A stretch of 64,000 nucleotides of DNA from the NCBI RefSeq assembly GCF_011064845.1, contig NZ_CP049015.1, forward strand, positions 2,728,001 through 2,792,000, written 5' to 3'. Below are positions 11,423 through 26,258 of this stretch, piece by piece. The notes beneath the pieces are model-generated. The model searched no databases. It saw only the letters and a list, made by a program, of their open reading frames with translations, and was not told the DNA's origin. This DNA comes from Citrobacter freundii ATCC 8090 = MTCC 1658 = NBRC 12681 (GTDB taxonomy: Bacteria > Pseudomonadota > Gammaproteobacteria > Enterobacterales > Enterobacteriaceae). Within the stretch, counting starts at the first letter, position 1. The number at the start of each line of letters is the position of its first letter. The translations under genes were made by a program, and so were the position numbers.

Positions 11423-11743
11423 CCTCATCTTAACCGCAATAAAGAAAATACATTTTGTTATCAAATTATTTACTTTTAGAGGTGCGTCATAAATCTAACA
11501 AATTACGATTTTTATATATTCTGCATATTAAATTACGCACCCTGCAAAACAACCCAATTACAAACAAAGACACAGAATAACTATTCAATCGCAAGTTAAA
11601 GCCCATACTAATCATGGCGATAATTCGTGCTGGTCGGGCAGGCCCTTCTATGAAAAAAATGTTAAATTTAGGTTTATATGGTGAGATTCACTGTATACCA
11701 CGGCCAAATTAAGAACATATTACTTTTATAACTAAGGTTTATC
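11423..11743. other. AT-rich intergenic region between pilus operon and dehydrogenase gene
   Basis: This 321-base region contains the promoter side of the dehydrogenase gene. A 7-bp inverted repeat (GGTGCGT at 11481 and ACGCACC at 11535) is visible, but its spacing is long. I see no strong terminator after the adhesin gene. A 20-codon frame at 11651-11713 starts with ATGAAAAAAATG but lacks a convincing ribosome site. Confidence 0.4.
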
Positions 11744-13018
11744 ATGGATAAGTTATCTTACGCTTCAGATAGCAGCACATCTGCCTGGAATACCTACCTG
11801 CAACAAATCGAGCGTGTGGCCCCTTACCTGGGCGAACTTTCCCATTGGGTGGATACCCTGCGCCACCCAAAACGCGCGCTGATTGTCGATATCCCGGTGC
11901 AGATGGATGACGGCACTATCCGTCATTTTGAAGGGTATCGCGTGCAACATAACCTCTCCCGCGGGCCGGGCAAAGGCGGTGTGCGTTATCATCCTGATGT
12001 TGATCTTAATGAAGTGATGGCCCTGTCCGCATGGATGACCATCAAATGCGCAGCGTTGAACCTGCCGTACGGCGGTGCCAAAGGTGGAGTGCGCGTCGAT
12101 CCGTTCTCGCTGTCTGAAGGCGAACTGGAGCGTTTAACTCGTCGTTATACCAGCGAAATCGGCATTATCATTGGGCCGCAGAAAGACATTCCTGCGCCGG
12201 ATGTAGGTACTAACGGCAAAGTCATGGCCTGGATGATGGATACCTACTCCATGAACCACGGCACCACCGTGACCAGTGTGGTCACCGGTAAACCTATTCA
12301 CCTTGGCGGTTCATTAGGTCGTGATAAAGCCACCGGTCGCGGCGTTTTCGTCAGCGGTCTGGAAGTCGCGCGCCGTGCCAACATCGAAGTTGAAGGTGCT
12401 CGCGTTGCAGTGCAAGGTTTTGGTAATGTCGGCAGCGAAGCCGCCCGACTGTTCGCGGCAGCTGGTGCACGCGTAGTCGCGATTCAGGATCACACCGCTA
12501 CGCTGTTTAACTCCACAGGTATCGACATGACCGCGTTGTCTGCCTGGCAGTTAGAGCACAAACAGATTGCCGGTTTCCCGGGCGCTGAAACCATCGCCAG
12601 CGAGGCCTTCTGGAGCCTGGATATGGATATTCTTATTCCTGCCGCGCTTGAGGGTCAGATCACCCGTCACCGTGCGGAAACCTTGACCTGTAAACTGGTA
12701 CTTGAAGGCGCTAACGGCCCAACCTATCCGGATGCCGATGATGTGCTGGCAAGCCGTGGTATCGTGGTTGTGCCTGACGTGGTCTGTAACGCCGGCGGCG
12801 TAACCGTCAGCTACTTCGAATGGGTTCAGGATATGGCAAGCTTCTTCTGGAGTGAAGAAGAGATCAACAATCGCATGGACAAAATCATGACTGATGCGAT
12901 GGTGCATGTTTGGGAAAAAGCAGCTGAGAAATCCTGCTCCCTGCGTACCGCAGCCTACATCGTTGCCTGCGAACGCATTCTGCTGGCACGAAAAGATCGC
13001 GGAATTTATCCGGGCTAA
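11744..13018 (+). CDS. Glu/Leu/Phe/Val dehydrogenase family, probable glutamate dehydrogenase
   Basis: A 424-residue hexameric-type amino acid dehydrogenase, probably interconverting glutamate and 2-oxoglutarate plus ammonia. The substrate-binding [11 protein letters not shown] (about residue 75), the catalytic-Lys segment [10 protein letters not shown] (about 105) and PAPDVGTNG (about 148) are intact, and the Rossmann GFGNVG lies near residue 227. Length fits glutamate dehydrogenase rather than the shorter leucine or phenylalanine enzymes. It is not the E. coli GdhA type (447 residues). Salmonella carries a similar gene near treA. A terminator follows, so it is probably transcribed alone. 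Cofactor preference cannot be read with certainty. Confidence 0.85.
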
Positions 13019-13038
13019 CGCTGAAATCGACCATGCCT

Positions 13039-13071
13039 ACAAACCACCTGTTCTGCAGGTGGTTTGTTTTC
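13039..13071 (+). terminator. Rho-independent terminator after the dehydrogenase gene
   Basis: A 12-bp perfect stem (ACAAACCACCTG with CAGGTGGTTTGT) and a 5-base loop are followed by TTTTCC. It begins 20 bases after the stop codon and separates this gene from dhaKLM. Confidence 0.85.
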
Positions 13072-13146
13072 CATAAAAAATCGTTCAAAAACTTTCCGCA
13101 CAAATACCGCCCGACCTCTCACTTTCGCTGTTTTATGCACCATGAC

Positions 13147-13192
13147 GTTCCAATACGGAACATTATTATGCTGCTATGTTTCGTATTGAAAC
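13147..13192. promoter_or_regulatory. Two matching palindromic sites upstream of dhaK
   Basis: GTTCCAATACGGAAC (13147-13161) and GTTTCGTATTGAAAC (13178-13192) are each 15-base palindromes with 5-bp arms. They are near reverse complements of each other and their centres are 31 bases apart, about three DNA turns. That geometry suits two dimers of one regulator on one face of the helix. They lie about 150-200 bases upstream of dhaK. The regulator is unknown; dhaR is not adjacent. Confidence 0.5.
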
Positions 13193-13343
13193 GCTCTTCA
13201 CAGCAATTTTCTTTTGCAAACCCGTGTGCAAAATTACCTTATCGGCAGCGAGCGGTCGCCGTGGCGTTGTACAAACCGATACCCTACATCAGATGCCTGC
13301 CCGAATTTGGCAGCCATCCAGGACTGTCTGCGGAGCATAAATA

Positions 13344-14414
13344 ATGAAAAAATTGATCAACCGTGTTGAAGACGTACTGAATGAACAACTCGCCGGACTG
13401 GCGAAAGCGTATCCTTCCCTGGCACTGCATCAGGACCCAGTGTATGTCACCCGCGCAGATGCACCGGTGATGGGCAAAGTGGCGCTGCTTTCCGGCGGCG
13501 GCAGCGGGCACGAGCCTATGCATTGCGGCTACATTGGTCAGGGCATGCTCTCCGGCGCCTGCCCGGGTGAGATTTTTACCTCCCCCACGCCGGATAAAAT
13601 GTTCGAATGCGCCATGCAAATTGATGGCGGGGAAGGCGTGCTGCTGATAATCAAAAATTACACCGGCGACATTCTTAATTTCGAAACCGCTACCGAGCTG
13701 CTGCACGAAAGCGGCGTCAAGGTCACCACCATGGTGGTGGATGACGATGTGGCGGTGAAAGACAGTTTGTATACCGCCGGACGTCGTGGTGTGGCTAATA
13801 CCGTATTGATCGAAAAACTGGTCGGCGCGGCCGCCGAACGCGGTGACTCGCTGGAAGCCTGTGCTGCGCTGGGTCGTAAGCTGAATAACCAGGGCCACTC
13901 CATTGGCATAGCCATTGGCGCCTGTACCGTTCCGGCAGCCGGACAACCGTCGTTCACGTTACAGGATAACGAGATGGAGTTTGGCGTAGGTATCCACGGG
14001 GAACCGGGCATTGACCGCCGCACCTTCACCTCTCTCGATCAGACCGTTGATGAAATGTTCGATACCCTGCTGGAAAACGGTAACTACAGCCGTACGCTCC
14101 GCCACTGGGACAACGTCCAGGGCGCGTGGCATGAAGGTAAAGAAAGCAAGCGTGCGTTACAAAGTGGCGATCGGGTTATTGCGCTGGTCAATAATCTCGG
14201 TGCGACGCCGTTGTCTGAACTCTTCGGCGTGTATAACCGCCTCGAAAGCCGTTGCCAGGATGCAGGCATCGTCATTGAGCGCAACCTGATCGGTTCTTAC
14301 TGTACCTCTCTGGATATGACCGGCTTCTCCATCACCCTGTTACAGGTGGATGACGAAACGCTGAACTTATGGGATGCACCGGTTCACACCCCTGCTCTCA
14401 ACTGGGGTAAATAA
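13344..14414 (+). CDS. dhaK: Dihydroxyacetone kinase, substrate-binding subunit DhaK
   Basis: DhaK binds dihydroxyacetone covalently as a hemiaminal on a histidine. The 356-residue sequence matches E. coli DhaK in length and keeps the GGGSGHEPMHCGY loop (about residues 49-61) and the later GIHGEPG segment (about residue 218) carrying the substrate-binding His. It works with DhaL and the phosphoryl donor DhaM, using phosphoenolpyruvate rather than ATP. It is first in dhaKLM, nine bases ahead of dhaL. In E. coli dhaK is divergent from its regulator gene dhaR; here the upstream neighbour is a dehydrogenase gene, with no dhaR. Confidence 0.96.
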   Translation: MKKLINRVEDVLNEQLAGLAKAYPSLALHQDPVYVTRADAPVMGKVALLSGGGSGHEPMHCGYIGQGMLSGACPGEIFTSPTPDKMFECAMQIDGGEGVLLIIKNYTGDILNFETATELLHESGVKVTTMVVDDDVAVKDSLYTAGRRGVANTVLIEKLVGAAAERGDSLEACAALGRKLNNQGHSIGIAIGACTVPAAGQPSFTLQDNEMEFGVGIHGEPGIDRRTFTSLDQTVDEMFDTLLENGNYSRTLRHWDNVQGAWHEGKESKRALQSGDRVIALVNNLGATPLSELFGVYNRLESRCQDAGIVIERNLIGSYCTSLDMTGFSITLLQVDDETLNLWDAPVHTPALNWGK

Positions 14415-14425
14415 GGAGATTCATG

Positions 14426-15058
14426 ATGTCCCTCAACAGAACACAGATTGTTAACTGGCTCTATCGCTGCGGTGAAATATTCACCACTGAAAGTGATTTT
14501 CTCACCGGACTTGACCGGGAGATCGGCGATGCCGACCACGGTCTGAACATGCATCGTGGTTTCAGCAAAGTCGTTGAAAAGCTGCCGTCCATCGCAGACA
14601 AAGACATCGGCTTTATTTTGAAAAACACCGGTATGGTGCTGCTCTCAAGCGTCGGCGGGGCCAGTGGACCGCTGTTTGGCACGTTTTTTATCCGCGCCGC
14701 CCAGGTTACTCAGGCTCATCAAAGCCTGACGCTTGAAGAGCTGTATCAAATGATTCGTGATGGCGCAGAAGGTGTGATTAGCCGCGGTAAGGCTGAACCT
14801 GGCGATAAAACCATGTGCGATGTCTGGCTGCCGGTAGTGGAGTCTTTACGCCAGTCATGCGAACAGAAGCTGAGCGTCCAGGCGGCTCTGGAAGCGGCAA
14901 GCCAACAAGCGGAAGTCGCAGCGCAAAGCACCATCACCATGCAGGCTCGCAAAGGCCGCGCCAGCTATCTAGGTGAGCGCAGCATTGGGCATCAGGATCC
15001 CGGCGCAACGTCGGTCATGTTTATGATGCAAATGCTGGCTCAGGCGTCCAGAGAGTAA
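14426..15058 (+). CDS. dhaL: Dihydroxyacetone kinase, ADP-binding subunit DhaL
   Basis: DhaL holds a permanently bound ADP that is rephosphorylated by DhaM and passes phosphate to dihydroxyacetone on DhaK. The family metal/ADP motif GDADHGLNM (about residues 34-42) and the downstream SSVGGASGPL loop (about 77-86) and GEPGDKTM-like loop are present. Two adjacent ATGs (14423 and 14426) follow AGGAG; the second gives the E. coli length of 210 residues and is used. The gap to dhaM is 10 bases. Confidence 0.95.
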   Translation: MSLNRTQIVNWLYRCGEIFTTESDFLTGLDREIGDADHGLNMHRGFSKVVEKLPSIADKDIGFILKNTGMVLLSSVGGASGPLFGTFFIRAAQVTQAHQSLTLEELYQMIRDGAEGVISRGKAEPGDKTMCDVWLPVVESLRQSCEQKLSVQAALEAASQQAEVAAQSTITMQARKGRASYLGERSIGHQDPGATSVMFMMQMLAQASRE

Positions 15059-15068
15059 GGATAAAGCG

Positions 15069-16499
15069 ATGGTAAACCTGGTTATTGTTTCTCACAGCGC
15101 CCAACTGGGCGAAGGCGTCGGCGTGCTGGCCCGGCAGATGTTAATGGGTGATGGTTGCAAAATCGCCATTGCCGCAGGCATTGACGATCCTGAGAATCCG
15201 ATTGGCACCGATCCGATTAAGGTGATGGAAGCCATCGAGTCCGTGGCCGATACGGACCACGTGCTGGTGATGATGGATATCGGTAGTGCATTACTGAGTG
15301 CGGAAACCGCGCTGGAACTGCTCGACCCTAACATTGCCGCCAAAGTGCGTTTGTGCGCAGCACCACTGGTTGAAGGCACACTGGCCGCGACGGTTAGCGC
15401 CGCCGCAGGTGCTGATATCGATCGGGTCATCCGTGATGCCATGAACGCCCTCGACGCCAAATGTGAACAACTGGGTTTACCTTCGCCATCCGCAGCGAAA
15501 CCCGCATCCGCTGAACTGTCTCCCGACGCTGATGCCCGTTCTGTTGCCATTGTGGTGAAAAACCCTAACGGCATCCACGTCCGCCCGGCTTCGCGGCTGG
15601 TTTCTGCGTTGTCTGGTTTTAACGCCGACATGTGGCTGGAGAAAAACGGCAAGTGTGTGGTCCCTGATAGCCTGAATCAAATAGCCCTGCTGCAGGTACG
15701 CTGTAATGACACGCTACGCCTGATTGCTAAGGGCGAACAGGCAGAGGATGCGCTGGCCGCATTTAAACAGTTGGCGGCAGAGAATTTTGGTGAATCGCTC
15801 GAGCCCGCGCATACTGATAACAAGGCAACTCTGGCTCCCTCAAAAGTCACGGGGACGGCATTTTGTCACACGCCGTTCTCGCCAAAGGTAAACCCGCAGT
15901 CCGCCGCATCACTGCAGGCTGAGCAGCAGCGATTACAGACCGCCATCCAAAGTACGCTGAACGATCTGAGCAAACTCACCGCTCTTGCTGAAGAACGATA
16001 TTCCGCAGATGTCGCCGCCATCTTCTCCGGTCACCACACGCTGTTGGACGATCCTGAACTGTTTGAAATGGCCTGCGATGTAATGCGTGAAAAACAATGC
16101 AGCGCCGCCTGGGCCTGGCATCAGGTGCTGAGCGATCTCAGCCAGCAGTATTTACAGCTCGATGACCCTTATCTGCAGGCGCGATACATTGATATTGAAG
16201 ATTTGCTGTCTCGTTCACTGCAACATTTGACGGGAGAGAGCGCACAAATTCCCGCGTTCTTGCGCCCCACTATCCTGGTCGCTGATGTCATTTATCCGTC
16301 TACGGTACTGCAACTCGATCCGAAGACCATCAAAGGTATCTGCCTGCGGGACGGCAGCGAAGCCTCTCATCCGGCGATTATCGCTCGTGAAATGGGTCTG
16401 TGCTGGATGTGTCAGCAAGGCGCTGCTCTCGATAGCATCAAGATGGGCGATACTCTGACCATTGACTGTGTCACACAGCGGATAACCCGCGCAAACTGA
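15069..16499 (+). CDS. dhaM: DhaM, multidomain PTS phosphoryl donor for dihydroxyacetone kinase
   Basis: The 476-residue protein fuses three PTS-like domains. An EIIA(Man)-like domain (1-130) carries His9 in IVSHSAQLGEG. An HPr-like domain (about 155-245) carries NPNGIHVRPASRLV. A truncated enzyme I-like domain (about 265-476) contains the phospho-His motif GSEASHPAIIARE near residue 430. It accepts phosphate from enzyme I and HPr and rephosphorylates ADP on DhaL. Length matches E. coli DhaM (472). It ends the dhaKLM operon, with a strong hairpin five bases after the stop codon. Confidence 0.95.
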   Translation: MVNLVIVSHSAQLGEGVGVLARQMLMGDGCKIAIAAGIDDPENPIGTDPIKVMEAIESVADTDHVLVMMDIGSALLSAETALELLDPNIAAKVRLCAAPLVEGTLAATVSAAAGADIDRVIRDAMNALDAKCEQLGLPSPSAAKPASAELSPDADARSVAIVVKNPNGIHVRPASRLVSALSGFNADMWLEKNGKCVVPDSLNQIALLQVRCNDTLRLIAKGEQAEDALAAFKQLAAENFGESLEPAHTDNKATLAPSKVTGTAFCHTPFSPKVNPQSAASLQAEQQRLQTAIQSTLNDLSKLTALAEERYSADVAAIFSGHHTLLDDPELFEMACDVMREKQCSAAWAWHQVLSDLSQQYLQLDDPYLQARYIDIEDLLSRSLQHLTGESAQIPAFLRPTILVADVIYPSTVLQLDPKTIKGICLRDGSEASHPAIIAREMGLCWMCQQGAALDSIKMGDTLTIDCVTQRITRAN

Positions 16500-16503
16500 T
16501 ACC

Positions 16504-16536
16504 GAAGCACACCCTTTTCGACAAAGGGTGTGCTTC
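16504..16536 (+). terminator. Terminator hairpin after dhaKLM
   Basis: A perfect 14-bp stem (GAAGCACACCCTTT with AAAGGGTGTGCTTC) with a 5-base loop begins five bases after the dhaM stop codon. The trailing sequence is TTCCCTATT, so the T-tract is short. Confidence 0.75.
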
Positions 16537-16669
16537 TTCCCTATTCGCGTCGGGAAATGTCTGTTTGTTCGCAAAATGGGGTGTCGATCACGCGCAACGT
16601 TCGATCCTGAACTAAGGTTTTCTCATGGTAAATGCCGCTACTTCGGCACACCGCTAAGGAGATTAACCG

Positions 16670-18382
16670 ATGATAACGCCTGCAACTCGCCATCCAGGCC
16701 TGCTTTCTGTTGCAATAAAACTGACTCTCGCCAGTACCTTTTTTGCCCTTTCCTCTTTTGCCGTCAATGCAGAAGACGCGCCAGCCGCTACACCGCAGCC
16801 GCCAGATATCCTGCTTGGACCTCTGTTTAACGATGTACAAACGGCTAAACTGTTTCCAGACCAGAAAACCTTTGCTGACGCAGTTCCTAACAGCGATCCT
16901 CTCATGATCCTTGCCGATTACCGGATGCAGAAAAATCAGTCCGGATTCGACTTACGCCATTTTGTGGAGGTGAATTTCACCTTACCGAAAGAAGGCGAGA
17001 AATACGTTCCCCCGGCCGGGCAATCATTACGCGAACATATTGACGGACTGTGGCCGGTCCTCACCCGCTCGACAACTGACGCTGAAAAATGGGACTCGCT
17101 ACTGCCACTTCCAGAGCCGTATGTGGTGCCTGGCGGGCGTTTTCGCGAAATATATTATTGGGACAGCTATTTCACCATGCTGGGGCTTGCCGAAAGCAAT
17201 CACTGGGATAAGGTCTCGGATATGGTGGCAAACTTCGCTTACGAGATTGATTCCTGGGGACACATTCCTAACGGCAACCGCACCTACTACCTGAGCCGTT
17301 CGCAACCGCCGTTCTTTGCCTTTATGGTTGAACTGCTGGCGCAGCATGACGGGAATGACGTGCTGAAAAAATACCTCCCGCAGATGCTCAAAGAGTACAG
17401 TTACTGGATGGAAGGCGTCGAAACACTCCAGCCCGGTCAGCAAAATAAGCGCGTGGTTAAACTGGATGACGGTACCATTTTGAACCGCTACTGGGATGAC
17501 CGCGATACGCCGAGGCCAGAGTCCTGGGTCGAGGATATCGCCACCGCTAAAAGCAACCCCAATCGCCCTGCCACAGAAATCTACCGCGACCTGCGTTCAG
17601 CGGCTGCGTCCGGCTGGGATTTTAGCTCCCGCTGGATGGACAATCCTAATCAGCTGGGTACTCTGCGCACCACCAGCATCGTTCCAGTCGATCTCAATGC
17701 GTTGATGTACAAAATGGAAAAAATGATCGCCCTCGCCAGCAAGGCTGCCGGTGATGATGCCAAAGCGGCGCAGTACGATGGCTTCGCTAATGCCCGACAA
17801 AAAGGGATCGAAAAGTATCTGTGGAACGACAAAGAAGGCTGGTATGCCGACTACGATCTGAAAAGCCATAAAGTACGCAATCAGCTCACGGCCGCCGCCC
17901 TGTTCCCGCTGTATGTCAATGCGGCGGCAAAAGATCGCGCCAGTAAAGTCGCCACAGCCACCCAGGCACATCTGCTGCAACCGGGCGGCCTTGCTACCAC
18001 GTCGGTGAAAAGCGGCCAGCAGTGGGATGCCCCCAACGGCTGGGCCCCGCTCCAGTGGGTCGCAGCATCCGGGTTACAGAATTACGGTCAGGATAACGTT
18101 GCGATGGATGTGACCTGGCGATTCCTTACCAATGTGCAGCACACCTACGATCGAGAGAAAAAGCTGGTTGAAAAATATGACGTGAGCACCACCGGCACCG
18201 GCGGTGGTGGCGGGGAATATCCATTGCAGGATGGTTTTGGCTGGACCAACGGCGTCACGCTAAAAATGCTTGACCTGATCTGCGCCAAAGAGAAGCCCTG
18301 TGACAGCGTACCCGCATCGCGGCCAACACCGACAAGTACACCACCAGCCGAGCCTAAAAAACAGACTCAACCGACGCCATAA
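16670..18382 (+). CDS. treA: Periplasmic trehalase TreA
   Basis: Hydrolyses trehalose to two glucose molecules in the periplasm under osmotic stress or when trehalose is a carbon source. The 570-residue family 37 glycoside hydrolase has a signal peptide of about 34 residues (ending VNA), trehalase signature 1 around [15 protein letters not shown] (about 150-165) and signature 2 around [12 protein letters not shown] (about 450-461). A glycine-rich [10 protein letters not shown] run follows near 510. The C-terminal 30 residues are a diverged Pro/Thr tail, as in E. coli. The ATG at 16670 has AAGGAG upstream. In E. coli treA is next to ymgE; here a metal-uptake operon lies between them. Confidence 0.97.
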
Positions 18383-18411
18383 CGTCATTACCTGAGCCGT
18401 TTTACTCCCCG

Positions 18412-18437
18412 AATCCGCGCTTCGTCGCGGATTTTTC
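18412..18437 (+). terminator. Terminator after treA
   Basis: An 8-bp stem (AATCCGCG with CGCGGATT), a CTTCGT loop and a run of T lie 30 bases after the treA stop codon. The shape is that of a standard intrinsic terminator. Confidence 0.85.
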
Positions 18438-18536
18438 TGTCATATTTTTCGCTATTTAAGCTGCCTCTATCCCCTCTAGCCCTTATGGGGTATCCGGTGT
18501 TTTCATCCGTGAGAATTTGATTCTGAACATGTTTTT

Positions 18537-18566
18537 ATTCGCTGTATATGTAAATATATAGCGAAT
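18537..18566. promoter_or_regulatory. ModE-like operator before the metal-uptake operon
   Basis: A 30-base palindrome with 13 of 15 pairs matched. It reads TCGCTGTATA, then six bases, then TATATAGCGA. The ModE consensus known from molybdate operons is CGCTATATA-N6-TATATAACG, so both half-sites and the six-base spacing agree. It ends 23 bases before the first ATG (18590), where a bound repressor would cover the promoter. ModE with molybdate bound would switch the operon off. Confidence 0.75.
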
Positions 18567-18589
18567 TTGTAACCTTCAGGATACTGATA

Positions 18590-19612
18590 ATGGCACTGAC
18601 AAGACGGATGTTTGCCCAACTCGTGGCATCTGCACTGCTGCTACGCCATCTTCCCGCATTGGCGCAAACGCCGCTAACCGTTGCCGTTGGAGGCTCGCCA
18701 GGGCCGAATATAACCCAACGCGTGGTCAGCGCGGGGGCGCCCGCTGACATGCTGCTGCTGGCCGTCGCGCCGGAAAAACTGGTAGGGCTTTCCTCCTTTG
18801 ATTTATCTCGCCAGACCGCCATCCCGTTCCACGATGATATTCGGGCATTGCCGAAACTGGGCAGGCTGGCAGGACGCGCCAGTACCCTATCACTTGAAGC
18901 GTTACTGGCGCTTAAACCCGACCTGGTTGTTGACTGCGGCAATGCCGATGAAACCTGGCTTTCTCAGGCCAGACAAGTGAGCGCACAAACTCACATTCCC
19001 TGGCTGCTGATTAACGGCGAACTGCGCCATACCCCAGAACAGTTGCGCGCAGCCGGTGAAGCATTGGGCGTCGTCTCGCGTACCGCAATGCAGGCCGCGC
19101 TGGCCCGTCGATTTATCGATAATGCAATAGCTTTCTCGCATACAGCTGCAGCGAATCTGCGTTTTTATGCCGCGCGCGGTGCCAGAGGACTGGAGACAGG
19201 TTTACAAGGTTCTTTGCATACCGAAGCGGCAGAACTGCTGGGGCTACAGAATGTGGCGCACATCCCCGGAAGACAGGGGCTCACACAGGTTTCAATGGAA
19301 AATCTGCTCAGCTGGCAGCCCGATATTATTTTGGTGCAGGATGCGATGACAGCGCAGCACCTACGAGAAGATCCGATCTGGCAAGGGGTCAAAGCGGTTG
19401 CTGACCGGCGCATTCTGTTTCTCAGCGGTCTGCCGTTTGGCTGGTTGGATGCACCTCCTGGCATCAACCGTTTACTGGGGTTACGCCGCCTGCACGCCTG
19501 GCTTGAACCGCAGGTTAACAAGAGCTTTAAAGCCGATATGCAGCGCTACAGCGAACTGTTCTGGCATACCACGCTAAGCGATGCACAGTATCAACGTCTG
19601 GTGGCAGTCTGA
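18590..19612 (+). CDS. Periplasmic metal/chelate-binding protein of a FecCD-type ABC importer, Tat signal
   Basis: A 340-residue class III (cluster A-II) binding protein of the kind that delivers siderophores, cobalamin or, in MolA, molybdate and tungstate. The N-terminus holds a twin-arginine motif (TRRMFA), a hydrophobic stretch and a cleavage site after LPALA, suggesting Tat export as for FhuD. The two-lobe core shows LSLEALLALKPDLVV (about 103-117) and SMENLLSWQPDIILVQ (about 235-250), the usual strands of this family. Its stop codon overlaps the permease start by one base. Ligand unproven; the ModE-like operator and ModD in the same operon point to molybdate, tungstate or a chelate of them. 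Confidence 0.82.
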   Translation: MALTRRMFAQLVASALLLRHLPALAQTPLTVAVGGSPGPNITQRVVSAGAPADMLLLAVAPEKLVGLSSFDLSRQTAIPFHDDIRALPKLGRLAGRASTLSLEALLALKPDLVVDCGNADETWLSQARQVSAQTHIPWLLINGELRHTPEQLRAAGEALGVVSRTAMQAALARRFIDNAIAFSHTAAANLRFYAARGARGLETGLQGSLHTEAAELLGLQNVAHIPGRQGLTQVSMENLLSWQPDIILVQDAMTAQHLREDPIWQGVKAVADRRILFLSGLPFGWLDAPPGINRLLGLRRLHAWLEPQVNKSFKADMQRYSELFWHTTLSDAQYQRLVAV

Positions 19613-20598
19613 TGAAAACATCTACCCTCGGTTTTCTGATGATTGCTGCGGTGGTGCTTTGCGCGAGCGTCGCTGCGGTATCGGGCGCGTACCGCCTGGA
19701 TGCGCAACAGGTTGTGAATCTTATTACAGGTACTGATGACGTCCCGATGCAGGACAAAATCGTCTTCTGGCAAATCCGCCTGCCGCGCATTCTGGCTGCA
19801 TTGCTGCTCGGCGCGGCGCTGGCAGGCGCAGGAACCACCTATCAGGGCATGTTCCGCAACCCGCTAGTCTCGCCGGATATCCTCGGCGTGGCGGCGGGTG
19901 CCGGTTTAGGTGCCTGTACGGCAATCCTGTTTGGATTACCGATCCTGTTCATTCAGCTGTATGCGTTCACCGGCGGTTTATTCGTGGTCGCCGGTGTCTG
20001 GTTGATTACCCGGCGAGTCAAGCGCCACGACCCGGTGTTAACGCTGGTTCTGGTCGGGATTGCGCTGGGTACGGTATGTGGCGCGGGGATTTCACTCATC
20101 AAAACGCTGGCCGACCCGTATACCCAACTCCCGTCTATCACCTTCTGGCTGCTGGGCGGTTTATCAACGATTACGCTGCACGATCTGTGGTTCTCAGCAC
20201 CGCTGATCTTCACGGGACTGGTCCCGCTATTGCTGCTGCGCTGGCGCATGAACCTGCTCACCCTGTCGGATGATGAAGCACGATCGCTTGGCATCAACGT
20301 CGCCCGACTGCGTCTGGGACTGATCGTCTGCGCAACGTTAATCACCGCCTGTACCGTCGCCATCGCGGGCATCATCGGCTGGATTGGGCTGGTTGTGCCG
20401 CATATCGGCCGACTCCTCAGTGGCAATAACCACCAGCAGTTGCTGCCGGTTTCCATGGGAGTCGGCGCCATTTTGCTGCTGCTCACCGATACCCTCGCCC
20501 GTACGCTGAGCAGCACGGAAATTCCGCTGGGGATCCTGACTGCATTTATTGGCGCACCGTTCTTTTTGCTGCTTTTGCTACGGGGAAATCGCCCATGA
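19612..20598 (+). CDS. FecCD-family ABC permease
   Basis: A 328-residue inner-membrane permease of the BtuC/FecCD/MolB family with about ten hydrophobic helices. Family marks include RLPRILAALLLGAALAGAG (residues about 55-73), RNPLVSPDILGVAAGAGLG soon after, and AIAGIIGWIGLVVPHIGR (about 243-260), which contains the cytoplasmic coupling helix that contacts the ATPase. Two copies would form the channel. The ATG overlaps the stop codon of the binding protein gene (1 base), and the 3' end overlaps the ATPase start by four bases, so the three genes are translated together. Confidence 0.9.
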   Translation: MKTSTLGFLMIAAVVLCASVAAVSGAYRLDAQQVVNLITGTDDVPMQDKIVFWQIRLPRILAALLLGAALAGAGTTYQGMFRNPLVSPDILGVAAGAGLGACTAILFGLPILFIQLYAFTGGLFVVAGVWLITRRVKRHDPVLTLVLVGIALGTVCGAGISLIKTLADPYTQLPSITFWLLGGLSTITLHDLWFSAPLIFTGLVPLLLLRWRMNLLTLSDDEARSLGINVARLRLGLIVCATLITACTVAIAGIIGWIGLVVPHIGRLLSGNNHQQLLPVSMGVGAILLLLTDTLARTLSSTEIPLGILTAFIGAPFFLLLLLRGNRP

Positions 20599-21356
20599 CG
20601 CTACTGACCGTCCGCCATGCGTCGTTGGGATACCACAGTAACCAGCCCGTGCTACGCGATGTCTCATTTCAGGTTCCGCCCGGCTCCGTCTGTTGTCTGC
20701 TTGGTGCCAACGGTAGCGGAAAAACCACCCTGATGCGCACCATTCTCGGCGTTCTTTCGCCGCTTCACGGTGACATTCTTCTTGATGGCATCGCCATAAA
20801 TCATCTCAACGATCGGCAACGCGCCGCCGCTATCGCCTGGGTTCCTCAGGCGCATGACGGCGCATTTGCCTTCACTGCGCTGGACATGGTGATGATGGGG
20901 CTGGCCCCGCAACTGGCGGCATTTGCGGTTCCCGGGGCTAAAGAACACGAAATTGCTCATCAACAACTGGCGATGCTGGGGATCTCTCACCTGGCGCCCC
21001 GGCGCTGGAACACTCTGAGCGGCGGAGAGCGCCAACTGGTATTGATTGCCCGCGCTCTGGCGCAACGTCCGCGCCTTTTGTTGCTGGATGAACCCGCTTC
21101 CAGCCTGGATTTTGGGCATCAGATCCGTCTGCTCGACACGCTGGTGACGCTGAAAAATTCGGGTATGGCCCTGCTGATGTCTACGCATCATCCGTTGCAC
21201 GCCCGGGCAATCGCCGACAGCGTGGTACGCGTTGAACCGAACGGTGAGGTGTCGCAGGGGCTTCCTGAACACCAGCTCGCCACCGATCGCCTGGCTGCAC
21301 TGTATCACGTTACACCGTCACAAATTGCCCACCACCTCTTTGGCTCTCACAATTAA
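20595..21356 (+). CDS. ABC importer ATPase, FecE/BtuD/MolC type
   Basis: A 253-residue cytoplasmic ATPase that powers the FecCD-type permease. The Walker A motif is GANGSGKTT (about residues 37-45), the Q-loop lies in WVPQAHDG (about 83-90), the ABC signature is LSGGERQ (about 143-149), Walker B is LLLLDEP and the switch His is in MSTHHPLHA (about 194-202). The start ATG overlaps the permease stop codon as ATGA. It is part of the same transcript as the methyltransferase, which begins nine bases downstream. Confidence 0.92.
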   Translation: MTLLTVRHASLGYHSNQPVLRDVSFQVPPGSVCCLLGANGSGKTTLMRTILGVLSPLHGDILLDGIAINHLNDRQRAAAIAWVPQAHDGAFAFTALDMVMMGLAPQLAAFAVPGAKEHEIAHQQLAMLGISHLAPRRWNTLSGGERQLVLIARALAQRPRLLLLDEPASSLDFGHQIRLLDTLVTLKNSGMALLMSTHHPLHARAIADSVVRVEPNGEVSQGLPEHQLATDRLAALYHVTPSQIAHHLFGSHN

Positions 21357-21365
21357 GGAATAAGA

Positions 21366-22178
21366 ATGCTCATTGACGACATTGATTTTGCCGATCTTTA
21401 CCGTAAACAGTTACAACTGGCGAACAGAACCGAGAAAAAGCCGGAGCACTGGGATAAACGTGCGGAAAAAATGGCGGAGAATTGCGCCTCATTAACCGAC
21501 AGCTATTTGCTACAGCTGTTGGGGAAAATCGACCTGCAAGGAGCGGAGTCACTATTTGATATGGGCTGCGGTCCCGGTACGGTCTCGCTGGCGCTGGCTA
21601 AAAAGATACCAATAATTTACGGCGTAGATTACAGCCAGGGAATGCTGAGCGTTGCTGCCCGCCGCGCTGTGCAAATGAACGCCCGTCACGTACAGTGGGT
21701 GCAGCGGGCCTGGGAAGAACACTGGGATGATTTACCCCAGTGCGATATCGCCGTCGCCTCGCGCTCTACGCTGGTTGCCGATATGCGCCAGGCAATGACC
21801 AAACTGAATAATCAGGCCCGGCTGCGGGTTTACACCACCCATCTCGTCAGTTCATCTTTCGTTTCCCCCTCCATTCAACGTGCGCTGGGCCGCGAGGTGA
21901 TTGAGCTTCCCAACTATATCTATGCGCTTAATGTCCTGTATCAGATGGGGATCCACGCGCACGTCGATTTTATCCGCGGCCCCAACTGTCAGCAGGACAA
22001 CAGTACCTGGACGCGCTTTCTGGAAAACGTGCGCTGGAGTATGGGCGAACTAAGCGCCGACGAGGTCGAACGTCTGGAAACCTGGTATCAGCAGCAGGAT
22101 CCACGCGCGATTGCCCCTGCCAGCCGTGACTGGGCGCTTATCTGGTGGGACAGCGTCCCACGGGAGGCGCTGCGATGA
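21366..22178 (+). CDS. Class I SAM-dependent methyltransferase in the metal-uptake operon
   Basis: A 270-residue Rossmann-fold methyltransferase. SAM-binding motif I reads LFDMGCGPGTVSLAL (about residues 61-75), followed by an acidic loop (YGVDYSQGMLSVA) and motif-II-like PQCDIAVASRS. No close named relative is recognised and the substrate is unknown. It is translated in the middle of an uptake operon and overlaps modD by four bases (ATGA). It may modify a metal-binding small molecule or process the imported chelate; that is inference from position. Confidence 0.8.
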   Translation: MLIDDIDFADLYRKQLQLANRTEKKPEHWDKRAEKMAENCASLTDSYLLQLLGKIDLQGAESLFDMGCGPGTVSLALAKKIPIIYGVDYSQGMLSVAARRAVQMNARHVQWVQRAWEEHWDDLPQCDIAVASRSTLVADMRQAMTKLNNQARLRVYTTHLVSSSFVSPSIQRALGREVIELPNYIYALNVLYQMGIHAHVDFIRGPNCQQDNSTWTRFLENVRWSMGELSADEVERLETWYQQQDPRAIAPASRDWALIWWDSVPREALR

Positions 22179-23032
22179 TCTACTTTTCGCAGGCGCAAAC
22201 CGACGCGCTGCTGCTGGAAGATATTCAGGGCGGCGATCTGACTACCCGCGCGTTGGGAATTGGCGCACAGCCGGGCGTTATGGCGTTTTACCATCGCCAG
22301 GGCGGGTGTGTTAGCGGCACCGCCGTTGCCAGACAAATGCTGACGTCATTAGGGCTGACAGTCAGCGACATGGTGGCCGATGGTGAACAGGTAAGTGCAG
22401 GACAGCGATTGATTTGTGCGCATGGGAATGCGGCGGCGCTGCACCAGGGCTGGAAAGCGGTACAAAATGTCCTGGAGTGGAGCTGCGGAGTTTCGGGCTA
22501 TCTTGAGAGCATGTTGAGCCAACTGCGCCAACGCTATCCTGATGGGCAGATTGCCTGCACCCGCAAAGCCATTCCCGGCACGCGTTCGTTGGCGACTCAG
22601 GCAATACTCGCCGCCGGGGGCATTATTCATCGCGGAGGATGCGCCGAAACGGTGCTGCTGTTCGCTAATCACCGCCGTTTTCTTACCAACCCAAACGACT
22701 GGACAAACGCGGTTGCGCGCTTACGCAGCCATGCGCCAGAAAAAAAGATCGTCGTCGAGGCGGATACGCCAGATGAAGCATTAGCCGCGCTACGCGCCGC
22801 GCCCGATATTCTGCAACTCGACAAATTCACCCCTGAGCAGGCGACAGACATTGCCCGCCTGGCACCTTCACTGGCCCCCCATTGCACGCTGGCGCTGACT
22901 GGCGGCATTACCCTCGCCTCGCTGGCGGGTTATCTCGACTGTGGCATCAGGCTCTTTATCACTTCCGCACCTTATTACGCTCCACCTGCGGATATCAAAG
23001 TTAACCTGAGCCCGGACGCACGTGGCATATAA
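22175..23032 (+). CDS. modD: ModD, quinolinate phosphoribosyltransferase-like protein
   Basis: A 285-residue protein of the ModD family, related in fold to nicotinate-nucleotide (quinolinate) pyrophosphorylase NadC. Diagnostic segments are the N-terminal EDIQGGDLTTRALGI (about 14-28), CTRKAIPGTRSLATQAILAA (about residue 140) and a C-terminal ALTGGITLASLAGY (about 247-260). ModD genes occur with molybdenum transport genes in several bacteria, but the reaction has not been established to my knowledge. The ATG at 22175 overlaps the methyltransferase stop codon and gives the usual ModD N-terminus; the open frame from 22145 is discarded. Confidence 0.87.
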   Translation: MIYFSQAQTDALLLEDIQGGDLTTRALGIGAQPGVMAFYHRQGGCVSGTAVARQMLTSLGLTVSDMVADGEQVSAGQRLICAHGNAAALHQGWKAVQNVLEWSCGVSGYLESMLSQLRQRYPDGQIACTRKAIPGTRSLATQAILAAGGIIHRGGCAETVLLFANHRRFLTNPNDWTNAVARLRSHAPEKKIVVEADTPDEALAALRAAPDILQLDKFTPEQATDIARLAPSLAPHCTLALTGGITLASLAGYLDCGIRLFITSAPYYAPPADIKVNLSPDARGI

Positions 23033-23055
23033 CATTAAAAAATGGACTAACAATA

Positions 23056-25026
23056 ATGAATTTCAACAAAAGTTGTCTTTACACAGCCCTGTCGTTTGCT
23101 TTCGCGCACAGTGCTTTTGCTGGGCAAGAAAGCGAAACCATGACCGTCTGGTCAAGCCCGGCCTCTGCGGCAACCACTACGGTTCTCGGCCAGGAAACGA
23201 TCCAACAGTTGGATAAACAAAACGTGGCGCAGGCGCTAAGCGTCGTCCCCGGCGTGGTGCTGCAAAAGTCGGGCAACCGCAATGAGCAGCAGGTGAAAGT
23301 GCGCGGTTTTGACAGCCGTCAGGTTCCCGTCTTTTTTGACGGTGTGCCGGTGTACATCCCCTATGACGGCAACCTCGATTTAGGCCGTTTTCTGACATCC
23401 GATATCGCTTCAGTTGAAGTTTCCAAAGGCTACTCATCTCTGCTACAAGGGCCTAACCAGATGGGCGGTGCCATTAATATCACCACCAAAAAGCCCACCA
23501 AACCAATTGAAGGCAGCATCGGCTATCGCCAGGGCTGGAGTCGTAGCAAAGACAACGCTCACGATATGCACGCTTCATTTGGCGCGAGTAACGATCTGGG
23601 TTATATCCAGCTCAGCGGCAGCCAGTTGAAGCAGGATTTCCTTGGCTTACCGCACGGCGTGGACAATCCGGTTGCGGGTAGTCACGGCAAGATTGCCAAC
23701 TCGTCCGCCGATGATAAACGCGGCATCGTGAAGCTGGGCTTTACCCCTCGCGGCGATGATGAATATGTCCTGACCTATATAAATCAGGACGGTGAAAAAG
23801 ATAACCCACCATATGCCGGAACCAGCAATCAGAAATCACGCTACTGGCAATGGCCACAGTACGATAAAGAGAGCTATTACTATCAGGGCACCACCCATCT
23901 GGGCGATCGTTTCACTCTGAAAAGCCGTCTGTATCGCGATACCTTTGAAAATACGTTGATGATGTACAACTCGCTTGCCGATCTGAAAAACAAAAAAGGC
24001 AACTACAGTCATTATTCAGACTATAGCGATGGAGCTGGCCTGCAGCTCGCTGCGGATATGCGTGAAAACGACCTGCTCTCTTTCGCCGTAAACTGGAAGG
24101 ATGATGTTCACCGCGAGAAAGGCGCACCGAATGCGGCTTACGACCGTTACGAAGACCGTACCTGGTCTGTTGCCAGTGAATATCAGTGGGCGGCGGCGGA
24201 TAATGTCGATGTAGTGGCGGGAATAAGCTATGACTGGCGTGACAGTCTGGAAGGCATGAAGCACGAAAAAAATGGTAGCGTCACCCACTATGATGACAAC
24301 AATCAGTCGGCCTTCAACTGGCAGATGATGACCAAATATCACTTCGAAAATGCAGACACATTAGCGCTGTCCTATTCTGACAGAACGCGTTTCCCTACGT
24401 TGAAAGAACGCTACACGACCTCAAAACCGGCCTATAACCAGGTGGCGCTGGTCAATCCGCAGCTTAAACCTGAACGAGCCCACAGCGTGGATCTGACCTG
24501 GAATGGGTCACTTAGTCAGAACTGGGGATTCGAAGCCAGCGTGTATTACAACCGCATCAGCGACGCCATCCTTTCACACAATATTGATGCCGACACCATC
24601 CAGAATCAGAACAGTGGCCGGGTGGATTACACCGGTCTGGATGCAGGCGTTAAAGGTAAAGTCTTTGATATGCTGGATGTCGGTCTGAGCTACGGCCTTA
24701 TTCATGCAGACGTCAAACGCAGCGACATCGGCAAGATTACCGACCTGCCAACGCAAACCCTGACTGCCTGGATGACGCTGAAGCCATGGGATCCGCTCAG
24801 TATTACGCTGTCAGAAGAGGCCCGTTCGTCGAGCTATAGCAATAGCGACGGCTCACAGAAAGCCGCTGGTTTCGCCATTACCCATTTACGCGCTGACTAC
24901 GCCATCGGTCACGGATTCAGCGTTAACGCGTCGGTCAATAACCTGTTCGATACGCAGTACGTTTATAGTGAAGGATTTATTGAAGAAGGCCGTAATTACT
25001 GGGCGGGGATTGAGTATCAGTTCTGA
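23056..25026 (+). CDS. TonB-dependent outer-membrane receptor of the metal-uptake operon
   Basis: A 656-residue outer-membrane gated channel. A 22-residue signal peptide (ending AFA) is followed by a TonB box-like ETMTVWSS, then the plug domain (LSVVPGVVLQKSG, VKVRGFDSRQVPVFFDGVPV) to about residue 150, and a 22-strand barrel ending in the terminal aromatic YQF. It begins 23 bases after modD with no promoter or hairpin between, so it is the last gene of the operon. With the Tat-secreted binding protein and FecCD importer it forms a complete route from outside to cytoplasm. The plug differs from the named iron receptors I know, so the ligand is open. Confidence 0.9.
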   Translation: MNFNKSCLYTALSFAFAHSAFAGQESETMTVWSSPASAATTTVLGQETIQQLDKQNVAQALSVVPGVVLQKSGNRNEQQVKVRGFDSRQVPVFFDGVPVYIPYDGNLDLGRFLTSDIASVEVSKGYSSLLQGPNQMGGAINITTKKPTKPIEGSIGYRQGWSRSKDNAHDMHASFGASNDLGYIQLSGSQLKQDFLGLPHGVDNPVAGSHGKIANSSADDKRGIVKLGFTPRGDDEYVLTYINQDGEKDNPPYAGTSNQKSRYWQWPQYDKESYYYQGTTHLGDRFTLKSRLYRDTFENTLMMYNSLADLKNKKGNYSHYSDYSDGAGLQLAADMRENDLLSFAVNWKDDVHREKGAPNAAYDRYEDRTWSVASEYQWAAADNVDVVAGISYDWRDSLEGMKHEKNGSVTHYDDNNQSAFNWQMMTKYHFENADTLALSYSDRTRFPTLKERYTTSKPAYNQVALVNPQLKPERAHSVDLTWNGSLSQNWGFEASVYYNRISDAILSHNIDADTIQNQNSGRVDYTGLDAGVKGKVFDMLDVGLSYGLIHADVKRSDIGKITDLPTQTLTAWMTLKPWDPLSITLSEEARSSSYSNSDGSQKAAGFAITHLRADYAIGHGFSVNASVNNLFDTQYVYSEGFIEEGRNYWAGIEYQF

Positions 25027-25042
25027 CTTAGCAATACAGAGA

Positions 25043-25064
25043 AACGGCCCCCGCGGGGGCCGTT
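25043..25064. terminator. Bidirectional terminator between the receptor gene and ymgE
   Basis: A perfect 22-base palindrome, AACGGCCCCC, GC, GGGGGCCGTT, lies between two convergent genes, 16 bases after the receptor stop codon and just before the ymgE stop codon at 25068. It lacks a long T-tract. Confidence 0.7.
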
Positions 25065-25067
25065 CGA

Positions 25068-25322
25068 TTAATCTCGCCGCACCAGTCGGAAGACACCCAG
25101 CACAACAATCGCGCCTACCACGGCCACCAGGAAGCTGTGGAGATTAAACCCGCTGACATCGCCGCCGATACCAAACATCGTTGCCAGCCATCCACCGACC
25201 ACAGCACCGACAACACCGAGAATACAGGTCAGGATAAATCCACCGCCATCGCGCCCCGGCATAATCAGTTTGGCGATAACCCCCGCAATCAGACCAAAAA
25301 TAATCCAGGCAATAATTCCCAT
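25068..25322 (-). CDS. ymgE: YmgE, GlsB/YeaQ/YmgE family membrane protein
   Basis: An 84-residue inner-membrane protein with three hydrophobic helices and the family pattern MGIIAWIIFGLIAG, KLIMPGRDGGG, GAVVGGWLATMFG. It is close to E. coli YmgE along its whole length. Members are often annotated as transglycosylase-associated because of gene fusions; the function is unknown and many are induced by stress. The ATG at 25322 matches the orthologue; upstream in-frame starts (to 25361) are not supported by homology. In E. coli it lies beside treA; here it marks the right edge of the inserted uptake operon. Confidence 0.9.
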   Translation of the reverse strand: MGIIAWIIFGLIAGVIAKLIMPGRDGGGFILTCILGVVGAVVGGWLATMFGIGGDVSGFNLHSFLVAVVGAIVVLGVFRLVRRD

Positions 25323-25460
25323 TTTCAGGCCCTCTTTCCAGTGAACGCACGCGCAAGACATTCTTGCGCCAGCCTTTAAAGTATAGGCAAACCATCGCTA
25401 TATGCTGTTTTCACGCAGACTTAATTCATTGGCGTTGGTAAAAAATTTCATCCATTTGTA

Positions 25461-25487
25461 TTAAGTTCCGTTGATTGATGCCGATAA
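25461..25487 (+). promoter_or_regulatory. Sigma28 (FliA) flagellar class 3 promoter of ycgR
   Basis: TTAAGTTC at 25461-25468, an 11-base spacer and GCCGATAA at 25480-25487 match the FliA consensus (TAAAGTTT-N11-GCCGATAA), with an exact -10 element. It is 36 bases upstream of the ycgR GTG. This puts ycgR under flagellar control, as in E. coli. Confidence 0.9.
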
Positions 25488-25523
25488 TCCAACGACAAAC
25501 CAGGCATCCGGGAGTCATTAGGT

Positions 25524-26258
25524 GTGAGTAACTACAATGAGCAGTTCCTGAAGCAAAATCCGTTAGCGGTGTTAGGTGTACTTCGGGACTTAAAATCGCA
25601 GCAGGTTCCACTGCGTATCTCCTGGTCGGGCGGCCAGTTCATCAGCAAAGTTCTGGCCGTCAGCCCGGACGAGCTGGTCATGGATTTTGGTAGCCAGGAA
25701 TATGAAAACCAGGCCGTACAGCGGGCCAGTCAGATCTCGATTATCGCCGAAACGCAGGGAGCCAAAGTAGAATTCACCCTGCCACAGTTAAAAAAAGGTG
25801 AGTATCAGCAACTGCCAGCGTTTATTTCATCCTTGCCGCCTTCCCTGTGGTTTGTTCAGCGTCGGGAATATTTCCGCATCGGCGCTCCGCTGCATCCTCC
25901 CTATCGCTGCACGGCAAAAATGCCGGACAACAGCACGCTGTGCTTTCGCTTATTCGATTTGTCGCTTGGCGGTATGGGCGGGCTGTTAGAAACGGCAAAA
26001 CCAGAAGGACTGGTAGAAGGTATACGCTTCGCGCAGGTTGAACTGAACATGGAACAATGGGGAGTGTATCACGTTGACGCCCAGCTTATTTCCATTAGCG
26101 AACGCAAAGTTATCGACAGTAAAAACGAAACCATTACCACTCCCCGCCTGAGCTTTCGTTTTCTCAACGTCGGCCCGGCGGTGGAGCGGAACTTACAGCG
26201 GATTATTTTTTCCCTTGAGCGCGAGGCCCGGGAAAAGTCGAACAAAGTGCGCGATTAA
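25524..26258 (+). CDS. ycgR: YcgR, c-di-GMP-responsive flagellar brake
   Basis: When bound to c-di-GMP, YcgR interacts with the flagellar motor or stator and slows swimming. The 244-residue protein has an N-terminal YcgR domain (about 1-110) and a C-terminal PilZ domain with the ligand motif RREYFR (Arg114 and Arg118) and DLSLGG (145-150). The start is GTG, with GGAG upstream, giving the E. coli length. A FliA promoter lies just ahead. The gene is convergent with emtA, with only 11 bases between. Confidence 0.96.
   Translation: MSNYNEQFLKQNPLAVLGVLRDLKSQQVPLRISWSGGQFISKVLAVSPDELVMDFGSQEYENQAVQRASQISIIAETQGAKVEFTLPQLKKGEYQQLPAFISSLPPSLWFVQRREYFRIGAPLHPPYRCTAKMPDNSTLCFRLFDLSLGGMGGLLETAKPEGLVEGIRFAQVELNMEQWGVYHVDAQLISISERKVIDSKNETITTPRLSFRFLNVGPAVERNLQRIIFSLEREAREKSNKVRD

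Follow-up and report, generated by a model that had tools for sequence, protein, structure and literature searches.

A six-gene operon of Citrobacter freundii with a TonB-dependent receptor and a FecCD-type importer, and its predicted control by ModE

Results

Six closely spaced genes lie behind a ModE-type palindrome

We analysed a stretch of 64,000 nucleotides of Citrobacter freundii ATCC 8090 (contig NZ_CP049015.1, positions 2,728,001 to 2,792,000), here called the window, in which six consecutive genes encode a substrate-binding protein (SBP), a FecCD-type permease, an ATPase, a methyltransferase, ModD and a TonB-dependent outer-membrane receptor (Table 1). Positions are those of the window unless stated otherwise. 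An earlier note on this DNA had described the row as tightly packed and headed by a palindrome, and this was confirmed: neighbouring genes overlap by 1, 4 and 4 bases at three junctions and are separated by 9 and 23 bases at the other two. Co-transcription of the six genes is therefore likely.

The palindrome, ATTCGCTGTATATGTAAATATATAGCGAAT, spans 18537–18566, and its 26-base core (18539–18564) lies 25 bases ahead of the first ATG. As the same note had claimed, both half-sites and the spacing fit the ModE consensus: the arms and the 6-base spacer match those of the sites upstream of modA (TCGTTATATT-GTCGCC-TACATAACGT) and moaA (ACGCTATATA-CATGAT-TACATAGCGA) in Escherichia coli K-12 MG1655, which we take to be ModE operators. 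Repression of modA by ModE appears in the reference list of PMC4031551.

Sites were scored with a 26-column ModE matrix built from eight sites at other genes, namely K-12 modA and moaA together with modA, moaA, dmsA, napF, ynfE and a molybdopterin reductase operon in the nearest genome, that of Citrobacter portucalensis A60 (G001). Most of these eight are presumably ModE targets. The eighth site (L094) sits inside the gene preceding the molybdopterin reductase rather than between genes, and a seven-site matrix was therefore made without it. With either matrix the window site scores 28.8 bits; dinucleotide shuffling of the surrounding 350 bases, repeated 200 times, gave at most 13.4 bits. The next-best match anywhere in the window reaches 8.8 bits.

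Table 1. Features of the operon region, with positions in the window
Feature	Position	Strand	Basis
ModE-type operator (predicted), TCGCTGTATA-TGTAAA-TATATAGCGA	18539–18564		matrix, 28.8 bits
SBP, Peripla_BP_2 (PF01497), MolA-like, twin-arginine-type signal TRRMFAQ	18590–19612	+	open reading frame (ORF) list, family search
FecCD-type ABC permease (PF01032), MolB-like	19612–20598	+	family search, PDB sequence match
ABC ATPase, ABC_tran	20595–21356	+	ORF list, family search
Class I S-adenosylmethionine-dependent methyltransferase, Methyltransf_25, small-molecule type fold	21366–22178	+	family search, fold
ModD, QPRTase/NadC-like phosphoribosyltransferase family, QRPTase N+C, TIGR01334	22175–23032 (ATG 22175)	+	family search
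TonB-dependent outer-membrane receptor, Plug (PF07715) and barrel (PF00593), TonB-box-like ETMTVWS	23056–25026	+	family search
GC-rich hairpin after the operon, possible terminator	25042–25065		scored on the − strand only

ModE-type sites recur at differently placed promoters

For all loci with an SBP match above 150 bits (n = 47), the region from −250 to +100 around the SBP start was compared with 200 dinucleotide shuffles. The site exceeded all 200 shuffles in 43 of the 47 promoters, and the seven-site matrix gave the same 43 and the same four misses. As one locus was present twice (L006 and L095), the count without the duplicate is 42 of 46, and many of these loci are close relatives. Among the four misses, one SBP gene has lost its 5′ end (L007), and in the other three (L096, L109 and L111) the site precedes the receptor gene instead. 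These counts are strong comparative evidence for the ModE control that the earlier note had proposed. When 12 promoters were aligned, 13 of the 16 invariant columns fell within the palindrome, with A21 among the other three. Across 76 loci (1,256,768 bases), 74 places score at least 20 bits, and 72 of them fall between −300 and +110 relative to the start of a gene of these families. As the loci had been selected for carrying these genes, and some are redundant with one another, the figure measures the specificity of the motif and not a genome-wide rate. A Fur box beyond the shuffles (p ≤ 0.01), scored with a consensus that we assumed, was seen at none of the 47 SBP promoters.

Receptor genes with a promoter of their own carried the site in all six cases tested, each exceeding 500 shuffles (the receptor gaps of Proteus-type loci lay outside this test). 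Two Shewanella-type loci (L105 and L106) have two sites, one ahead of the SBP gene and one ahead of the receptor gene, and in two Gilliamella-type loci (L109 and L111) the receptor gene lies on the opposite strand and bears the site. A receptor gene with its own ModE-type site is also seen in L121 and L096. In the latter (Stenotrophomonas sp. SY1), a modE gene (TIGR00637, above cut-off) is divergent from the receptor gene, and the palindrome stands directly before an ATG of the receptor ORF. The predicted sites thus stand at differently placed promoters, which argues that common descent of one promoter is not what accounts for their recurrence.

The L121 receptor belongs to a larger Glaesserella-type locus of the Pasteurellaceae (L140), where a permease-ATPase-SBP-ModD cluster is interleaved with SBP-permease and TonB-ATPase-methyltransferase genes. 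Three ModE-type sites, of 23.8, 25.2 and 26.9 bits, are found there at positions 5452, 11267 and 12426 of that locus. The best solved match of its Mol-like permease is HI1471/MolB; for its SBP, 4ovk is slightly ahead of MolA. The three-site arrangement may bear on the molybdate repression of mol genes in Pasteurellaceae. Separately, in four Pasteurellaceae-type genomes (L136–L139) the SBP operon and a receptor gene are transcribed divergently, and the stretch between them holds two ModE-type sites in tandem (13.8–23.6 bits).

The importer is nearest to MolB

The earlier note had proposed a route from the cell surface to the cytoplasm, and its parts were found: a receptor with plug and barrel domains, an SBP and a FecCD importer. 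The kinship to MolABC that it had suggested is borne out by the permease, whose best solved match is HI1471, the molybdate permease MolB of Haemophilus influenzae (E = 2.3e-65), followed by HmuU (6.1e-51). By sequence, the SBP matches 4pag from Sulfurospirillum (1.4e-21) and then MolA, HI_1472 (1.4e-09). The order is the same for its predicted fold (mean predicted local distance difference test score, pLDDT, 88.5), where 4pag takes ranks 1–2 and MolA (3psa) rank 3. Near the N terminus, 39 of 46 SBPs carry an RRx[FLMI] motif as in twin-arginine (Tat) signals; a Tat-type signal also occurs on the SBP FhuD. Judged by this motif alone, the SBP is probably exported by the Tat pathway.

A regular expression for the TonB box, written from its known consensus, matched 23 of the 48 receptors scanned, including that of the window, so that either the expression falls short or the box varies. 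Against the siderophore-receptor model TIGR01783 the window receptor scores 137.9 bits (cut-off 223.5), and it also matches a heme receptor model below cut-off. The BtuB and BtuC models match receptor and permease, respectively, far below their cut-offs. The families of ModABC-class proteins, SBP_bac_11 and BPD_transp_1, were not found among the six operon proteins by family search.

The methyltransferase accompanies the SBP, and ModD resembles a phosphoribosyltransferase

The fold of the methyltransferase was predicted with a pLDDT of 89.6, and the positions that are invariant among 23 members include some in the GCGPG loop and some in an ASRSTLV segment. The closest folds among the 50 matches listed are mostly natural-product and other small-molecule methyltransferases, with template modelling (TM) scores of 0.43–0.58. 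We attempted to name a substrate from the fold and abandoned this, as no single family stands out among those 50. The best solved sequence match is a CbiT-type precorrin enzyme, and it is weak (E = 6.1e-07).

The methyltransferase is present in 23 of 394 genomes of the order (13 of 114 genera) and the SBP (threshold 1e-40) in 12, all of which are within the 23 (hypergeometric p = 5e-17, phylogeny ignored). The methyltransferase is therefore a steady partner of the SBP, even where the two are unlinked: in four of the 12 genomes, the SBP (L136–L139) and the methyltransferase (L110 and L112–L114) lie in separate stretches. A class-wide draw gave the methyltransferase in 2 of 369 genomes. Of 13 stand-alone methyltransferase genes, seven have a ModE-type site whose score is reached by at most one of 500 shuffles. 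In seven Pasteurellaceae-type loci (L108, L110, L112–L114, L119 and L120), a methyltransferase gene that stands by itself has a ModE-type site of its own, which points to a molybdenum role for the enzyme that would be independent of transporter linkage.

ModD scores 434 bits against TIGR01334 (cut-off 179) and 134.3 bits against the NadC model TIGR00078, below the cut-off of 198.4. Relative to the QPRTase of Mycobacterium tuberculosis, with residue numbers and roles as we take them to be, the equivalents of R139, K140, H161, R162 and E201 are kept in 50 of 50 sequences and D222 in 48 of 50, and three positions are changed in all 50 (K172 to Phe, R105 to Lys and N223 to Lys). Retention of the catalytic equivalents alongside these substitutions fits a phosphoribosyltransferase-type enzyme acting on another substrate. 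ModD is absent from the equivalent Stenotrophomonas, Shewanella-type and Gilliamella-type loci examined and elsewhere adjoins modABC-type genes (including in Cereibacter and Gilliamella); the idea of ModD as a chelate-specific enzyme was rejected on these two grounds. In a Spirochaetaceae metagenome-assembled genome (L046), FecCD permease, ATPase and SBP genes are followed in one row by modABC-like genes and ModD, placing both classes of molybdate importer beside a single ModD.

Distribution, decay and genomic setting

A search of genome contigs gave 45 ModD loci, 33 of which hold all six families in the order of the window. These 33 come from Citrobacter, Escherichia, Serratia, Klebsiella, Raoultella, Enterobacter, Proteus, Morganella, Pantoea and others; in three of them a gene is truncated or split (L007, L014 and L021), and several of the other 12 ModD loci are cut by contig ends. 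Among complete E. coli genomes in RefSeq, 2079 of 5426 match the operon by megablast, although no match reaches 80% of the query and the SBP part is not aligned. Fifteen E. coli records were sampled at even intervals along the ranking: in 14 the alignment runs from permease to receptor, and in the last one it covers only 9%.

Damaged copies occur alongside intact copies in relatives. The methyltransferase gene has an internal stop in E. coli 06-3462 (L001), and the receptor gene is fragmented in L014 (E. albertii), L021, L136, L138 and L139. One E. coli record classed as a plasmid (L002) bears the operon between the chromosomal-type neighbours treA and ymgE.

In the window the operon likewise has treA (ORF 16670–18382) and ymgE as neighbours, as judged from two annotated E. 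coli loci. The same stretch is present in C. portucalensis A60 with 93% DNA identity over 6702 columns, and the A60 stretch is letter-identical in G001.

ModE-type sites elsewhere in the nearest genome

G001 has a modE gene and 11 places with at most one mismatch to CGNTATAT-N8-ATATANCG. They include places at modA and moaA (identified by tblastn), ahead of dmsA, ynfE and napF, at the six-gene operon, ahead of a second TonB receptor gene, and inside the gene preceding a molybdopterin reductase. Two more were found in the L087/L089 regions, one ∼500 bases ahead of the hydrogenase-2 small subunit gene and one in the region of a YdhV-type aldehyde ferredoxin oxidoreductase, a family that is presumably tungsten-type. 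The place 3′ of exaC matches poorly at its edges and may be a chance match.

A second TonB/FecCD locus is present in this genome (L122, C11:140000–158000, at 11674–17911), with a FemA-like receptor, two Peripla_BP_2 proteins, a FecCD permease and an ATPase. It has 17 of 20 site letters ahead of the receptor gene and 15 of 20 ahead of the second SBP gene. The row has no methyltransferase or ModD, and the next gene, which is convergent, encodes an SBP_bac_11 protein (L123:1898–2680). A search of viral contigs gave no relative of the second Citrobacter SBP. With this second TonB/FecCD locus headed by a ModE-type site, C. portucalensis may take up more than one cargo of this kind.

Relation to described systems

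Contrary to the earlier note, which knew of no described system with these genes, the gene set is already known. It is homologous to the prrA-modD-yc73-fepC cluster of E. coli CFT073 and O157:H7 (OI#55, ECs1693–ECs1699), for which a role in iron uptake was proposed (PMC1890555) or considered possible (PMC12928451), and whose modD is listed as unknown (PMC8046923). Two annotated E. coli loci of the cluster have the gene order of the window, between treA and ymgE. The DNA of the E. coli cluster is ∼74% identical to that of the window where megablast aligns. The accessible accounts of the E. coli cluster differ from ours in describing possible iron uptake only, with ModE control unmentioned. What is new is the predicted control, the breadth of distribution and the pairing with the methyltransferase.

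The molybdate/tungstate importer MolABC of H. influenzae (HI1470–HI1472) shares with the window a FecCD-type importer with an SBP. MolA binds molybdate and tungstate, and molybdate represses molB by way of what the authors call an ‘unknown factor’ (PMC4031551, Discussion). As annotated in the accessible part of PMC3928620, the H. influenzae cluster (HI1469–HI1475, molABC with modA, modD, salX and cysU) has no TonB receptor or methyltransferase, unlike the window, whose SBP is also closer to 4pag than to MolA. The high-affinity importer ModABC(D) resembles the operon in the ModE control of modA and in having ModD as a companion (in Cereibacter and Gilliamella) but is a different class of transporter (SBP_bac_11/BPD_transp_1). 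With the siderophore systems Fhu, Fep and Hmu the operon has in common the architecture of receptor, SBP, FecCD permease and ATPase; it differs from them in the absence of a Fur-box signal and in a receptor that falls below the siderophore-model cut-off.

Elsewhere, some alphaproteobacterial modD genes are regulated by NifA (PMC4999443), and molybdophores have been described in Azotobacter (PMC3440940). In a Klebsiella Cr(VI) transcriptome (PMC8195247), modA and modB are up, ModD is unnamed in the main text and the iron/TonB systems named are others. The accessible parts of PMC5343134, PMC8264917, PMC11734730, PMC7759655, PMC3940904, PMC10581191 and PMC9171197 contain nothing on a ModE–TonB system. 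No report of a ModE-controlled TonB receptor was found in the accessible open-licence literature; subscription papers and regulon databases lay outside this scope, and a prior prediction is possible.

Discussion

We conclude that the six-gene operon is likely to be a ModE-controlled system for acquiring molybdenum or tungsten, because of the site at 43 of 47 SBP promoters and at all six receptor promoters, the divergent modE gene in Stenotrophomonas, the lack of Fur boxes and the permease nearest to MolB. By these comparisons, a role in molybdenum uptake is much better supported than the iron role given in print.

At high cellular molybdate, Mo-ModE would occupy 18539–18564 and shut the promoter, and the operon would be released when molybdenum is scarce. 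We infer repression by analogy with that of H. influenzae molB by molybdate; ModE can also activate. The cargo of the receptor would be a Mo(VI) or W(VI) species that is scarce or bulky, probably a chelate and most likely one that other organisms produce. We favour a foreign chelate over a self-made one, as no scaffold-making gene is among the six, the only genes of the genome covered by this search. By homology, the SBP and the MolBC-like FecCD importer would then carry the cargo inwards. In the cytoplasm, the methyltransferase would act on the organic ligand, most simply by methylating a donor group, such that molybdenum is released and the ligand cannot rebind it. ModD may be an accessory enzyme of molybdenum uptake, with QPRTase-like catalytic residues kept and the substrate pocket changed. 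We hold tentatively, at somewhat short of even confidence, that these genes represent a dedicated import of organically chelated molybdenum or tungsten, in which a TonB receptor switched by ModE works with a MolBC-like importer and with a family of small-molecule methyltransferases that free the metal. Such import would range from Stenotrophomonas and Shewanella to Gilliamella and the Pasteurellaceae and would include as many as a third, or more, of the complete E. coli genomes.

Several observations weigh against an assignment to molybdenum or to chelates. No strong site is present at the distant ModD loci L041–L046 (13–15 of 20 letters); L047 has 16 of 20 letters ∼50 bases ahead of ModD. The two sites before the SBP gene are weak in L138 (14.9 and 14.5 bits), and those of L137 score 19.9 and 13.8 bits. 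In the window, a scan of 18380–18640 gave no consensus sigma-70 promoter whose −10 element the operator could overlap. No ligand was retrievable for 4pag, the closest solved relative of the SBP. Six of the 13 stand-alone methyltransferase genes have no ModE site, and the enzyme may therefore have molybdenum-independent uses. MolABC imports molybdate in its free form, and its cluster has no receptor according to the published annotation; a TonB-dependent route would therefore not have to involve a chelate. Finally, the two papers found to interpret the six-gene cluster call it iron uptake (PMC1890555 and PMC12928451).

The last point has its counterpart in the receptor, which matches general siderophore and heme receptor models, if below their cut-offs. 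Uptake of a ferric siderophore or heme, with the ModE-like site incidental or coupling iron uptake to the demand for molybdoenzymes, nevertheless seems improbable to us given the recurrence of ModE sites at differently placed promoters, the absence of Fur boxes, the closeness of the importer to MolB and the linkage with modE in one genome and with a MolBCA/ModD-like cluster in another. A fair rival, though still an unlikely one, is that molybdate or tungstate enters in its free form: here the receptor would only raise the entry of the oxyanion as the outer-membrane partner of a MolABC-like importer. The MolB-like permease, the binding of both oxyanions by MolA (PMC4031551) and the ModE-type site near the YdhV-type oxidoreductase in G001 would all suit it. 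However, molybdate is thought to diffuse through porins, with molybdenum uptake usually assigned to porins and ModABC (PMC8264917), and an organic ligand would better explain a dedicated TonB receptor and the regular pairing with a small-molecule methyltransferase.

The two enzymes are also central to the suggestion of the earlier note that ModD and the methyltransferase make or process a chelator, by which the operon would produce and recapture its own molybdophore. By family or fold, both resemble enzymes that act on small molecules, but no scaffold synthetase is found among the six genes (chelator synthesis elsewhere in the genome was not searched for), several similar loci have no ModD, and ModD occurs elsewhere beside modABC-type genes; we regard a self-made molybdophore as still more improbable than iron. 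The CbiT-type match of the methyltransferase and the BtuC and BtuB matches of permease and receptor would be expected if the cargo were cobalamin or another tetrapyrrole or cofactor. This is barely credible, as the scores are far below the BtuB and BtuC cut-offs, ModE sites are present, and no Rfam family, the cobalamin riboswitch included, reaches its gathering score in 18000–25600.

If ModE-controlled acquisition of molybdenum or tungsten is correct, the operon would add an outer-membrane step for these metals in common gut and uropathogenic species, and a cluster filed as iron uptake in the literature on E. coli pathogens would be reassigned. ModE would be suggested as the ‘unknown factor’ in the molybdate repression of mol genes in Pasteurellaceae. 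ModD and the methyltransferase, two enzyme families without a known reaction, would gain a testable metabolic setting.

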